DNA of 64,000 nucleotides from an uncultured Clostridia bacterium. Its GTDB lineage: Bacteria; Bacillota; Clostridia; Lachnospirales; Anaerotignaceae. The notes under the pieces were generated by a model. It saw only the letters and a list, made by a program, of their open reading frames with translations. It made no database searches and was not told the origin of the DNA. This document shows, piece after piece, positions 31,618 to 39,802 of the stretch; within the stretch, counting starts at the first letter, position 1; each line of letters opens with the position of its first letter. The DNA lies in the NCBI GenBank assembly GCA_944378105.1, contig CALWGC010000020.1:62001-126000 (forward strand). The letters are read 5' to 3'. The translations under genes were made by a program, and so were the position numbers.

Positions 31618-32283
31618 TTATCGTTTGGTGGCTTTCTTTGCCAAAAAATCGCCAAAGTTTTGTGCCACTTGCACCACAACGACCAAAATCAACACAGTGA
31701 TGATCATGACGCCTGTTTCATAGCGGTAATAGCCATACTGGATGGCCAAGTTCCCAATACCGCCGCCACCCACCAGACCGGCCATGGCGCTAAAGCCAAT
31801 GAGGTTGACAAAGGTGACCGTAAAGGCCCGCAAAAGCCCTGGAAAGGCTTCCACGAACACCACTTTTCTTAAAATCAACGGCAACGAAGCGCCGGTGGAA
31901 AGGGCCGCTTCAATAACACCCGTATCCACTTCCCGAAAGGCGCCGTCCACCAGTCTGGCCAAAAAGGCAATGGCCGCGATGCTTAAGGGAATGGCCGCTG
32001 CCTTTGGCCCAATGTTGGTGCCAACCAAGGCCTGCATCAGCGGAATGCAAAGTACCATCAAAATCACAAAGGGGATAGAGCGGATGACATTGACTACCAC
32101 TTCTGCCACGGTGTTGACCACTTTTTGTTTCACAAACATCTGGTTGGATGTGATATAAAGCAACAGCCCCAAAAGCGTGCCTAAAATCAAAGCAGAAATC
32201 ATGGAAATGGCCATCATTTGGATGGTTTCTATCACGGCCTTTCCAAGCTCCCGCTGTAAAATTTCGAATGTTTCTGCCAGCAT
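31618..32283 (-). CDS. metI: Methionine ABC transporter permease
   Basis: A 221-residue permease with five membrane helices. The binding-protein-dependent loop appears as EAALSTGASLPLILRKVVFVEA (about 130-150 in parts), and VVVNVIRSIPFVILMV is a MetI-type segment. It moves methionine across the membrane, powered by MetN. It is third in metQ-metN-metI order, 13 bases after metN. Confidence 0.93.
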   Translation of the reverse strand: MLAETFEILQRELGKAVIETIQMMAISMISALILGTLLGLLLYITSNQMFVKQKVVNTVAEVVVNVIRSIPFVILMVLCIPLMQALVGTNIGPKAAAIPLSIAAIAFLARLVDGAFREVDTGVIEAALSTGASLPLILRKVVFVEAFPGLLRAFTVTFVNLIGFSAMAGLVGGGGIGNLAIQYGYYRYETGVMIITVLILVVVVQVAQNFGDFLAKKATKR

Positions 32284-32296
32284 GTGGGTTCCTCCT

Positions 32297-33310
32297 TTAT
32301 TTCAACTTTTCCAACCGGTAAACATGGTCGGTAATGTACTGCACCGCTTCTTTGCGGATATCGTCTTTCCCTTTGACTTTGATGACAAGAATACCCAAGG
32401 CCTGACGGTGGATATAGTCGATCTTCCCATGAAGGATACTCACATCCACGTCAAACCGTTTGGCCACTTCGTTGATGACCGGGTCATAGGCCTTTTCGCC
32501 TACATAATAAATTTTATACAGTTCTTCGTCGGCCTGGATGGCATCGGCCACAAAATCCGGCACGTCCAGTTCAAAGTTGCGGTTGACCAGCATTTTGGTG
32601 ACAGGGTGTTGCGGGTTGGCAAAAATGGAATAGGTATCGTTGACTTCCACAATTTCGCCTTTGTTCATGACGGCAATCCGGTCAAAGAGTTTTTTGGCCG
32701 CATCCAAGTCATGGGTGATAAAGACGATGGTGATGTTGGATGTTTCTTTGATTTTGCGCAACACGGAAAGCACTTCTTCGGTGCTTTCCAAATCCAGTGC
32801 GGATGTGGCTTCGTCACAAAGGAGAATGTCCGGCGTATTGGCCAAGGCCCTGGCGATGGCCACCCGCTGTTTTTGGCCGCCGCTGAGGCTTTGGGGATAG
32901 ACGTCAATCTTATCCGAAAGCCCCACCATCTGCAACAGCTCTTCCACCCGGGCCCGTTGTTTTTCTTTGGGATATCCCCCGGCCGTTAAGGCGAAGGCCA
33001 CATTTTCGCAAACGGTTGCGCCGCTGATCAAATGGAAATGCTGAAAAATCATGCCAATGTTTTTGCGTACCTGCCGCAATTGGCTGCCTTTGGCTTTTGT
33101 GATGTCCACACCGTCAATGAGCACTTGGCCGCTGGTGGGCTGCTGTAACAGATTCATCACCCGCACCAGTGTGCTTTTCCCAGCACCGCTGGGGCCAACA
33201 ATCCCAAAAATTTCGCCTTTTTCAATTTCCAAATTCACATTTTTTACGGCATGAAATCCGTCTTTTCCCTTTGCGCCAAAGGAAACGGAAATATCTTTAC
33301 AAACGATCAT
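32297..33310 (-). CDS. metN: Methionine ABC transporter ATP-binding protein
   Basis: A 337-residue ATPase. Walker A is GPSGAGKSTL (about 37), the signature LSGGQKQRVAIARAL (about 140) and Walker B ILLCDEATSALD (about 160). Residues about 260-337 form the C-terminal NIL domain that in MetN senses methionine to shut the transporter. It lies 25 bases after metQ. Confidence 0.94.
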   Translation of the reverse strand: MIVCKDISVSFGAKGKDGFHAVKNVNLEIEKGEIFGIVGPSGAGKSTLVRVMNLLQQPTSGQVLIDGVDITKAKGSQLRQVRKNIGMIFQHFHLISGATVCENVAFALTAGGYPKEKQRARVEELLQMVGLSDKIDVYPQSLSGGQKQRVAIARALANTPDILLCDEATSALDLESTEEVLSVLRKIKETSNITIVFITHDLDAAKKLFDRIAVMNKGEIVEVNDTYSIFANPQHPVTKMLVNRNFELDVPDFVADAIQADEELYKIYYVGEKAYDPVINEVAKRFDVDVSILHGKIDYIHRQALGILVIKVKGKDDIRKEAVQYITDHVYRLEKLK

Positions 33311-33335: not shown

Positions 33336-34250
33336 TTATTCGTCGGCGCCGTATTTTTCTACCCACCACTCTGGCTTGTCAAAACCAGCATAGAGGCTGC
33401 CATCTGCCATAATCACATCATAAAATGCCTGGCTTTCTACAATTTCTTTCAGCTCTGCGCCCAAAGTATCCACATCTTCGGTCCGAACGGCAATGACATT
33501 TTTAAAATCTTCGCCCAATTTTTCTACACCCAGTGCATCGGCAAAATCCAATTCTGCGGCGATGGCATAGTTGCCTGGGATGACGCCGATGGCAACGCTA
33601 TCGAGGCTTCTGGAAATCTGGGCTGCATCCATGGTCACAAATTCCAAGTTTTTCGGGTTATCTGCAATGTCGGCTACACTTGCTTTTGTTTCGTCAATTT
33701 CACCATTTAAGGTAATGACGCCAAGGTCGCGCAGGAAACGAAGGGAACGAGCCAGGTTTACGGCATCGATGGGGATGGCCACGGTATCGCCATCTTGCAG
33801 TTCATCCAAAGAAGTAATGGAGTTAGAGAAGACGCCAGCGCCTGCCGTTGGCACGTTGATGACAGCAGAAATATCCAGGTTGTTGTCGGCGGCAAACTGG
33901 GTTAAGTAGGCGGTGTGCTGCATCAAGTTGGCATCGATGTCGCCGCTGGCCAATGCTTGGTCTGGCTGTACATAATCAGTAAATTCAATGATTTCTACGG
34001 TATAGCCTTTTTCTTCCAAACTTGGGGTAATGGCATCGGTGAACATATCGCCATAAGGGCCGGCGCAAACGCCAACTTTCAATTCTTTTGCTTCGGTGGT
34101 TTCGGCGGTGCTTTCTTCCGTTGTTTCTGTACTTTCGGTGGTTTGGGTGCTTTCGGTGCTTTCTGCACTATCGCTGCCAGAAGCACAACCACTCAAGGCC
34201 AATAAGGCCGCTGCCGTCAATGCAATTACTTTGCTCCAATGTTTTTTCAT
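33336..34250 (-). CDS. metQ: Methionine-binding lipoprotein
   Basis: A 304-residue NlpA/MetQ-family lipoprotein. The signal peptide ends in LALSGCASG, a lipobox. A Ser/Thr/Glu-rich linker (about 25-52) precedes the binding domain: KVGVCAGPYGDMF, VEIIEFTDYVQPDQALASG, IDANLMQHTAYL and VPTAGAGVFSN. It captures methionine outside the cell. The ATG follows AAGGAGAGATCGGATT. It is the first gene after the unusual leader at 34251-34661. Confidence 0.94.
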   Translation of the reverse strand: MKKHWSKVIALTAAALLALSGCASGSDSAESTESTQTTESTETTEESTAETTEAKELKVGVCAGPYGDMFTDAITPSLEEKGYTVEIIEFTDYVQPDQALASGDIDANLMQHTAYLTQFAADNNLDISAVINVPTAGAGVFSNSITSLDELQDGDTVAIPIDAVNLARSLRFLRDLGVITLNGEIDETKASVADIADNPKNLEFVTMDAAQISRSLDSVAIGVIPGNYAIAAELDFADALGVEKLGEDFKNVIAVRTEDVDTLGAELKEIVESQAFYDVIMADGSLYAGFDKPEWWVEKYGADE

Positions 34251-34387
34251 AATCCGATCTCTCCTTTATCCCATTTGTTTTTTGTTTTTTTGTTTTTTGT
34301 TTTTTCTTTTTTTTGATTTCATTCTGTTTTTCTGATTTGTTTTTTGCTCTGTCTTTTGCGTTATGGCCGCTTTGGGCAACAAAAAAA

Positions 34388-34416
34388 CAGCTACACTCAT
34401 CTGCTGTGTGTACCTG
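34388..34416 (-). terminator. Leader terminator upstream of metQ
   Basis: Minus strand CAGGTACAC and GTGTAGCTG pair with one G-G mismatch around an 11-base loop, followed by TTTTTTT. It stands 138 bases before metQ and inside its long leader, the position of an attenuator. Confidence 0.7.
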
Positions 34417-34534
34417 TTTCTACTCAAAGAAAACGTGTCGTTTCCGTTTCAAACCCACAGGTCACACAAATTGCGATGCACACCAAAAACAAACCATAGA
34501 ACTGCGACATCCTACCGCTTTTTACGGTGACAAA

Positions 34535-34586
34535 GATAAGTGAACCTGCTTGCTTTTTTCCATGTTGCCAAGTGGTTTATCTTATC
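34535..34586 (-). promoter_or_regulatory. Stem overlapping the leader-peptide stop codon
   Basis: Minus strand GATAAG (34586-34581) and AACC pair with GGTT and CTTATC (34540-34535). The left arm overlaps the last sense codons of the 18-residue leader peptide and its flanking bases, so a ribosome there would open the stem. Further hairpins (ACCG/CGGT near 34514-34530) follow. Confidence 0.5.
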
Positions 34587-34633
34587 CCTGCCACCTTGCA
34601 CATGGTCATGTTGTTTGAAATCGTAACGAACAT
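34577..34633 (-). CDS. 18-residue leader peptide upstream of metQNI
   Basis: MFVTISNNMTMCKVAGIR, preceded by AGAAAGGAGAGAAAGCGTT and placed about 28 bases after the predicted transcription start. The Met-Thr-Met-Cys stretch places two methionine codons and one cysteine codon just before the stop. This fits a peptide whose translation rate reports charged Met (or Cys) tRNA. No known leader peptide was recognised; it could also be an unrelated small protein. Confidence 0.6.
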   Translation of the reverse strand: MFVTISNNMTMCKVAGIR

Positions 34634-34667
34634 AACGCTTTCTCTCCTTTCTGTGTTGTTGTCGTTT

Positions 34668-34696
34668 ATGATACTGCCATTTTTTTCGATTGTCAA
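34668..34696 (-). promoter_or_regulatory. Sigma-A promoter of the metQNI leader
   Basis: Minus strand TTGACA (34691-34696) and TATCAT (34668-34673) are 17 bp apart. The resulting leader to metQ is about 410 bases. Confidence 0.78.
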
Positions 34697-39482: not shown

Positions 39483-39539
39483 ACCCTTCGTCTTTCAAAA
39501 CGGCAGTGACAGTTGCTGCTGCTTTGAGAGACGAAGGGT
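39483..39539 (-). terminator. T-box terminator
   Basis: ACCCTTCGTCTCTC pairs with GAAAGACGAAGGGT (one mismatch or wobble) across a long loop and is followed by TTTTTTG on the minus strand. Confidence 0.9.
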
Positions 39540-39802
39540 AACATTCCTCCGCGGTACCACTCTACATTTGCTCCCCAAGGGGAACACACTCTTTCACGGA
39601 AACGGGCAAACTGCCGATCTCCTGCCATCTGATAACGGTTGGCCTCCGGTTTTACCTAGCGTTTGATCCCAAACGGTTCAGCAAACCACTCCAAGGCGAG
39701 TTCCAATCCCCATCCCTACCATCTCGCACCAACCGATGGCTCTCTGAAAGCGTCCGGACATTGTACTATTCCTCTTCATCGTGTTCTTTTCCTGATTGGA
39801 TT
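39484..39802 (-). promoter_or_regulatory. T-box leader (leucine) of leuACDB
   Basis: The minus strand shows the T-box core GAGTGGTACCGCGG (about 39549-39562), an upstream Stem I region with specifier context GGAACTCGCC (CTC, Leu) near 39691-39700, and the terminator at 39483-39539 that competes with the antiterminator. Uncharged tRNA-Leu would prevent termination and turn on leucine synthesis. Downstream genes agree with the specifier. Confidence 0.93.

Follow-up and report, generated by a model that had tools for sequence, protein, structure and literature searches.

Leader-peptide attenuators are classically known from the trp, his, leu, thr and phe operons, and are represented in Rfam by Trp_leader, His_leader and other families. 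Firmicutes are said to use riboswitches, T-boxes or repressors, with methionine as the classic example. Leader-peptide attenuation in Firmicutes has been described for the His leader peptides of Bacilli (PMC2965389) and for a Leu-rich attenuator peptide at ilv-leu of Staphylococcus aureus (PMC5794164); Cys leader peptides were predicted in Actinobacteria (PMC1262725). For the methionine importer operon metNIQ of Streptomyces lividans, a Met leader peptide named metL (MSTTSDRTPATEATTTPGARCMCRRMCAF, ending in ..RCMCRRMCAF at the stop codon) was proposed, without a clear intrinsic terminator (PMC8079986). Here we describe the leader of the metQNI operon in a 64,000-nucleotide stretch of DNA (the window) from an uncultured gut Clostridium, in which, as judged from modelled folds, ribosome stalling at Met codons of the leader appears to turn on the methionine importer.

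Like the classical attenuators, this leader combines a short upstream open reading frame (uORF) containing codons for the amino acid of the pathway, antiterminator and terminator structures that exclude each other, and a predicted decision by ribosome position. It differs from them in having Met codons, in serving a transporter operon, in its sequence-invariant core and in the location of the antiterminator strand, which lies about 115 nucleotides (nt) past the uORF, with P1 and CAGGUUC as its two protectors. It shares with metL a Met/Cys-containing leader peptide at the same operon, whereas the S. lividans system is actinobacterial, has a leaderless transcript and shows no sequence relation to ours (PMC8079986). 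The His leaders of Bacilli (PMC2965389) and the Leu leader of S. aureus (PMC5794164) are also cases of attenuation in Firmicutes, concerning other amino acids and genes. An earlier note on this DNA had called a Met- or Cys-sensing leader peptide a new arrangement for this operon. This was too strong, because metL had already been proposed at S. lividans metNIQ; no earlier report for Clostridia was found in the literature searched, which covered few subscription journals.

The leader is approximately 412 nt long and lies between leuB and metQNI on the minus strand of the window, to which all coordinates below refer. The genome of the window (G000) and two congeners, G001 and G002 (Ca. N. galli), were compared; their genus, Candidatus Neoanaerotignum, belongs to the Anaerotignaceae. 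A sigma-A type promoter, TTGACA-17-TATCAT (34668-34696), matches the consensus at 11/12 positions and has the same layout in G001 and G002. The Shine-Dalgarno (SD) sequence AAAGGAG (34644-34650) precedes the uORF (34577-34633), which would be translated into the 18-residue peptide MFVTISNNMTMCKVAGIR; the G002 counterpart, MCFGLYSQAMTMCKVAGIR, is in frame with an SD of its own. The control codons Met-Thr-Met-Cys (ATG ACC ATG TGC; 34598-34609) contain the predicted switch point in all three species. The earlier note had described this promoter, uORF and a terminator with seven T before metQ, all of which were confirmed, but it had put Met-Thr-Met-Cys directly before the stop codon, from which it is separated by six codons (KVAGIR).

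Within the uORF lies the 5' strand of stem P2 (GGUGGCAGGGAUAAG; 34581-34595), which pairs with CUUAUCUUUGUCACC (34526-34540) over 15 base pairs; the end of P2 adjoins the uORF stop, where the earlier note had described a stem. CAGGUUC (34542-34548) is a second protector that, by folding, pairs with the ACCUG segment once P2 is opened. Downstream are the P3 hairpin (AAGCGGUAGGAU/GUUCUAUGGUUU; 34491-34520), the antiterminator 5' strand (GUGUGACCUGU; 34457-34467), which is common to the P1 3' strand, and the P1 3' strand itself (34426-34454), the partner of the SD and of the 5' half of the uORF. The intrinsic terminator, ACAGGUACAC...GUGUAGCUGUUUUUUU with seven T, occupies 34381-34417 and corresponds to ACAGGUACAU...AUGUAUCUGU in G002. 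The leader folds more strongly than chance (z = -2.96), with a strongly folding middle.

A leader in the same place was found in G001 (93% identical) and in G002, and both congeners share the promoter, the frame of the uORF and the stems. Between G000 and G002 the last ten residues of the peptide, MTMCKVAGIR, are identical and the N-terminal half has diverged; invariance extends over residues 9-18 and almost all the codons for them, the control codons Met9, Met11 and Cys12 among them. The peptide is conserved at its C-terminus, but the same nucleotides make P2. Two blocks stand out in this comparison: block A, the 3' part of the uORF, with 33/34 identical positions, and block B, the P2 3' strand and P3 5' strand, with 40/40. 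The MetQ proteins of the two genomes are 79% identical and the four-fold sites of metQ 38% identical.

The uORF 5' part, the P1 3' strand and the terminator have turned over between G000 and G002, yet the alternative stems still pair in the congener. In P1, both partners have changed at eight pairs, and pairing is retained. The antiterminator pairing is GUGUGACCUGU with ACAGGUACACAC in G000 and CAUGGCCUGU with ACAGGUACAUG in G002, and the terminator arms change together with it (ACAGGUACAC/GUGUAGCUGU with GUGUGACCUGU in G000; ACAGGUACAU/AUGUAUCUGU with CAUGGCCUGU in G002). Antiterminator and intrinsic terminator are mutually exclusive, and this exclusivity has been preserved by compensating changes.

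The leader is probably a transcription attenuator of the ribosome-mediated kind, in which stalling at the two Met codons of the 18-19 codon peptide serves to sense charged tRNA-Met. In the proposed mechanism, segment 1 is the SD and the 5' half of the uORF, segment 2 the 3' half of the uORF, segment 3 the stretch CAGGUUC..CUUAUCUUUGUCACC, segment 6 (G)ACCUGU and segment 7 the terminator. When Met-tRNA in the cell is low, a ribosome stalled at Met would cover segment 1 and block P1 (1:6), while P2 (2:3) would stay in place and mask CAGGUUC. Since P2 would hide CAGGUUC and the covered segment 1 would prevent P1, segment 6 would be free to pair with the 5' arm of the terminator, allowing metQNI to be read. 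A ribosome reaching KVAGIR-stop would open P2, and segment 6 would be captured by CAGGUUC (G000, G001) or by P1 (G002); the terminator would then form and the operon would be off. If the uORF is not translated, P1 would capture segment 6 in G001 and G002, which would also leave the operon off.

The switch was modelled by masking the 28 nt covered by a ribosome at every codon of the uORF; larger and smaller footprints were also run. This purely thermodynamic scan was read out on transcripts ending just past the terminator 5' arm, as the frequency of pairing between that arm and the antiterminator strand (G[A/G]CCUGU). With the A site on Met9 or Met11, the antiterminator was predicted at 0.94-0.99 in G000, G001 and G002 (0.78-1.0 across the three footprints). 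From Lys13 onward it fell, mostly to 0.1 or below, and with the ribosome at the stop codon it was 0-0.05 with the standard footprint in the three species. The exceptions were a few Ala and Gly codons of G000 and G001, at which one footprint gave values that were intermediate or higher. An in silico change to the P2 5' strand abolished the on state, turning the device off. When all upstream sequence was shuffled, the on/off pattern was reproduced in 0/200 cases for G000 and 2/200 for G002. The ribosome-mediated attenuation proposed in the earlier note is supported by this predicted switch at the Met-Thr-Met-Cys codons in three species and by the Met-rich leaders of two other genera described below.

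Several observations weigh against this reading. When only the middle of the leader was shuffled, the observed contrast was reached in 5/150 cases for G000, 22/150 for G001 and 49/150 for G002; the weakness of this control for G001 and G002 led to the stricter all-upstream shuffle, and the last value means that P1 accounts for much of the G002 contrast. The ribosome-free fold favoured the antiterminator in G000 (0.97), which is discrepant with G001 (0.27) and G002 (0.0), where P1 holds the leader mostly off and off, respectively. The full-length G002 fold gave the terminator in every state, so the decision must be kinetic, a matter of timing. The peptide has only two Met codons and one Cys codon, and the sample consists of three genomes, two of them nearly identical. 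Finally, blocks A and B are identical at 73/74 nt, G-U pairs included, an invariance which an ordinary attenuator does not need.

Such a core at 38% four-fold identity may reflect a second constraint, and leaves room for an aptamer or an arrest peptide, possibly on top of codon sensing. The invariant 74-nt core could be a second sensor, either a small-molecule aptamer or a Met- or S-adenosylmethionine (SAM)-dependent arrest peptide, making the leader an attenuator-riboswitch hybrid confined to one genus; we offer this as a tentative and rather doubtful idea. If true, the hybrid would read both Met-tRNA charging, through codon stalling, and a free metabolite. A new aptamer-type riboswitch acting on its own, in which the P1/P2/P3 junction binds SAM, methionine or a related ligand and stabilises P1 in favour of the terminator, with the uORF incidental or secondary, is unlikely. 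A covarying P1 that closes a three-way junction and has its 3' strand in common with the antiterminator is a classic riboswitch layout, and the identity of the core at saturated neutral divergence would suit it. However, recurrence beyond one genus or one gene, as looked for in an aptamer riboswitch, was not seen among 392 genomes of the order and 331 of the class: a covariance model of the core found the three genus genomes only, with one locus each, always before metQ. Weak matches to this model in G225, G104, G339, G056 and G309 (E 0.008-0.09) were at chance expectation over that many genomes. The uORF frame and SD are also kept, and structurally unrelated Met-codon leaders serve the same operon in relatives. 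The Rfam covariance search at gathering threshold gave no family over the leader (in the window it gave a leuA T-box and four tRNAs), and at E <= 10 only chance-level matches, in agreement with the earlier note, which had found neither a SAM riboswitch nor a T-box. The SAM-I riboswitch (RF00162) resembles our leader in its P1/antiterminator logic and in its association with sulfur-amino-acid genes of Firmicutes, but its covariance model did not match over the leader; the three genus genomes have one SAM-I copy each, at metK where checked, and that of the window genome is directly upstream of metK. GATAAG/CTTATC, considered as a permuted S-box P1, was dropped, as no other S-box core motif is present. 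The T-box model (RF00230) did not match and no UGGNACCGCG antiterminator was found in the leader, although the same search recovered the leuA T-box; each of the three genomes has 14-15 T-box matches, none of them at metQ. Leader DNA had no match in plasmids.

Arrest by the nascent peptide, with MTMCKVAGIR-stop stalling the ribosome at or near the stop at high methionine or SAM, keeping P2 open and forcing termination (a TnaC/SpeFL-like logic with inverted outcome), is distinctly improbable. It would account for the invariance of residues 9-18 and nearly all their codons beside a diverged N-terminal half, and the predicted off state does have the ribosome at KVAGIR-stop. The peptide has just 18-19 residues, however, invariance at the synonymous level points to RNA pairing over peptide alone, and the leaders of relatives show Met runs, typical of codon sensing, rather than conserved arrest motifs. 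The earlier note had left the sensed codon as Met or Cys, and of these Met is favoured. A signal from Cys-tRNA, to which the Cys codon directly after Met-Thr-Met and the mixed Met and Cys codons of the g17 (see below) and Streptomyces leaders would lend themselves, is very improbable: the antiterminator was predicted at 0.97-0.98 in G000 and G001 but at 0.04 in G002 when the A site held Cys, AUG is the specifier of those T-boxes that were read at related operons, and the peptides of genus g3 are Met-dominated. An ordinary 5' untranslated region with a terminator and no regulatory uORF is scarcely credible in view of the conservation, covariation and shuffle controls. The signal of the attenuator would be Met-tRNA and not Cys or a ligand.

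In relatives, 31 upstream regions of metNIQ operons of the family were examined. Rfam placed T-boxes at 21/31 of these loci, and the specifier was AUG in all three T-boxes read residue by residue. Such a T-box controls the same operon through a terminator and senses uncharged tRNA-Met; unlike our leader, it binds the tRNA directly, without a translated uORF, and the two have no sequence similarity. Several other metN loci in the class have SAM-I riboswitches or T-boxes.

In genus g3, two members carry Met-run leader peptides of the pattern MMMMC..MMMCM: MNTLYFNNTMMMMCSRSMMMSMVSFDACYVPTDCTSAF in G004, and the tandem pair MNNNRVNNSMMMMCSRGMMMCMVNFCVCCDSRL and MNYSVLNNSMMMMCRRDMMMCMAYLSACYAERVLD in G029, each followed by a terminator. 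In these three leaders, the segment past the Met codons forms base pairs with the arm and loop of the terminator (GUGUGUUGUG with CAUAACACAC; GCGUGUUAUGC with GCAUAACAUGC; GUGUUAUGU with GCAUGACAC). In the footprint scan this pairing disappeared no more than a few codons from the last Met; G004 and the second G029 leader also showed dips in it at some earlier codons. In a protein pattern search of 392 genomes, the g3 matches alone fell in leaders before metN, and the rest were due to chance. The tandem attenuators of G029, with their own terminators before metN (locus L148, contig C121, reverse strand, approximately 1580-1930), may form a double-gated attenuator. G018, of the same genus as these leader peptides, has a T-box with an AUG specifier at metN (L149); the orthology of the operons is unsettled.

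At the metQ-first loci of genus g17, the leader peptide is MRTDFTRLENMHMCMRMLRTKDHCVSRCCMQKV with variants (MHMCMRMLR..C..CC) that show synonymous Arg and Leu changes and shifted Cys codons; the antiterminator was predicted by the footprint scan to be lost just beyond MCMRM. A match to this peptide in G178 (E 0.009) was at chance level. A candidate leader in G449, from another family of the class, has a g17-like layout and ends in ..CSMRCRMFRM at its stop. The metQ-first operons of g17 (L035, L036, L037) and of G449 (L174) have a conserved operator-like stretch, ATAACCTATTATACCTATAGGATATTAGAC, and a LysR-type gene lies upstream at the g17 loci. These operons apparently have two control layers, the operator-like stretch and a Met/Cys-rich leader peptide with a terminator. 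A further candidate was seen about 230 nt before metN in G144 (L195), which belongs to another family of the order; here the Met/Cys-rich MNRMMHAACCISQRAGNMTMAMSLMCCAHLYFLYSHPGK (..NMTMAMSLMCC.., then stop) is followed by a weak terminator.

On these predictions, Met- or Met/Cys-codon leaders recur at this transporter with unrelated structures. Within one family, T-boxes are found at this operon in most genera, and at least three Met-codon leaders of unrelated structure in others. The Met-codon attenuator seems to do the job that a Met T-box does in most relatives, with the signal kept and the sensor swapped, the leader presumably having replaced the T-box. As the predicted switch is at Met codons each time, this is a testable case of sensor replacement in which the tRNA-Met charging signal is retained. 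It also points to an under-counting of leader-peptide attenuation in Clostridia, as leaders so short and fast-evolving are absent from Rfam.

In the 2.04 Mb host genome, the leader is followed by metQ (33336-34250, ATG at 34250), encoding a MetQ/NlpA lipoprotein, metN (32297-33310), encoding the ATPase (TIGR02314, E 1e-100, under the family cut-off), and metI (31618-32283), encoding the permease. An A-rich tract (AAAAAACAAAAAACAAAAAAACAAAAAAC; 34270-34330), about 22 nt longer than in G001, separates the terminator from the metQ start, and was the source of most spurious matches of leader DNA elsewhere. The leuA T-box of the window (39524-39788, minus strand; 120 bits) lies upstream of the leuA-leuCDB genes.
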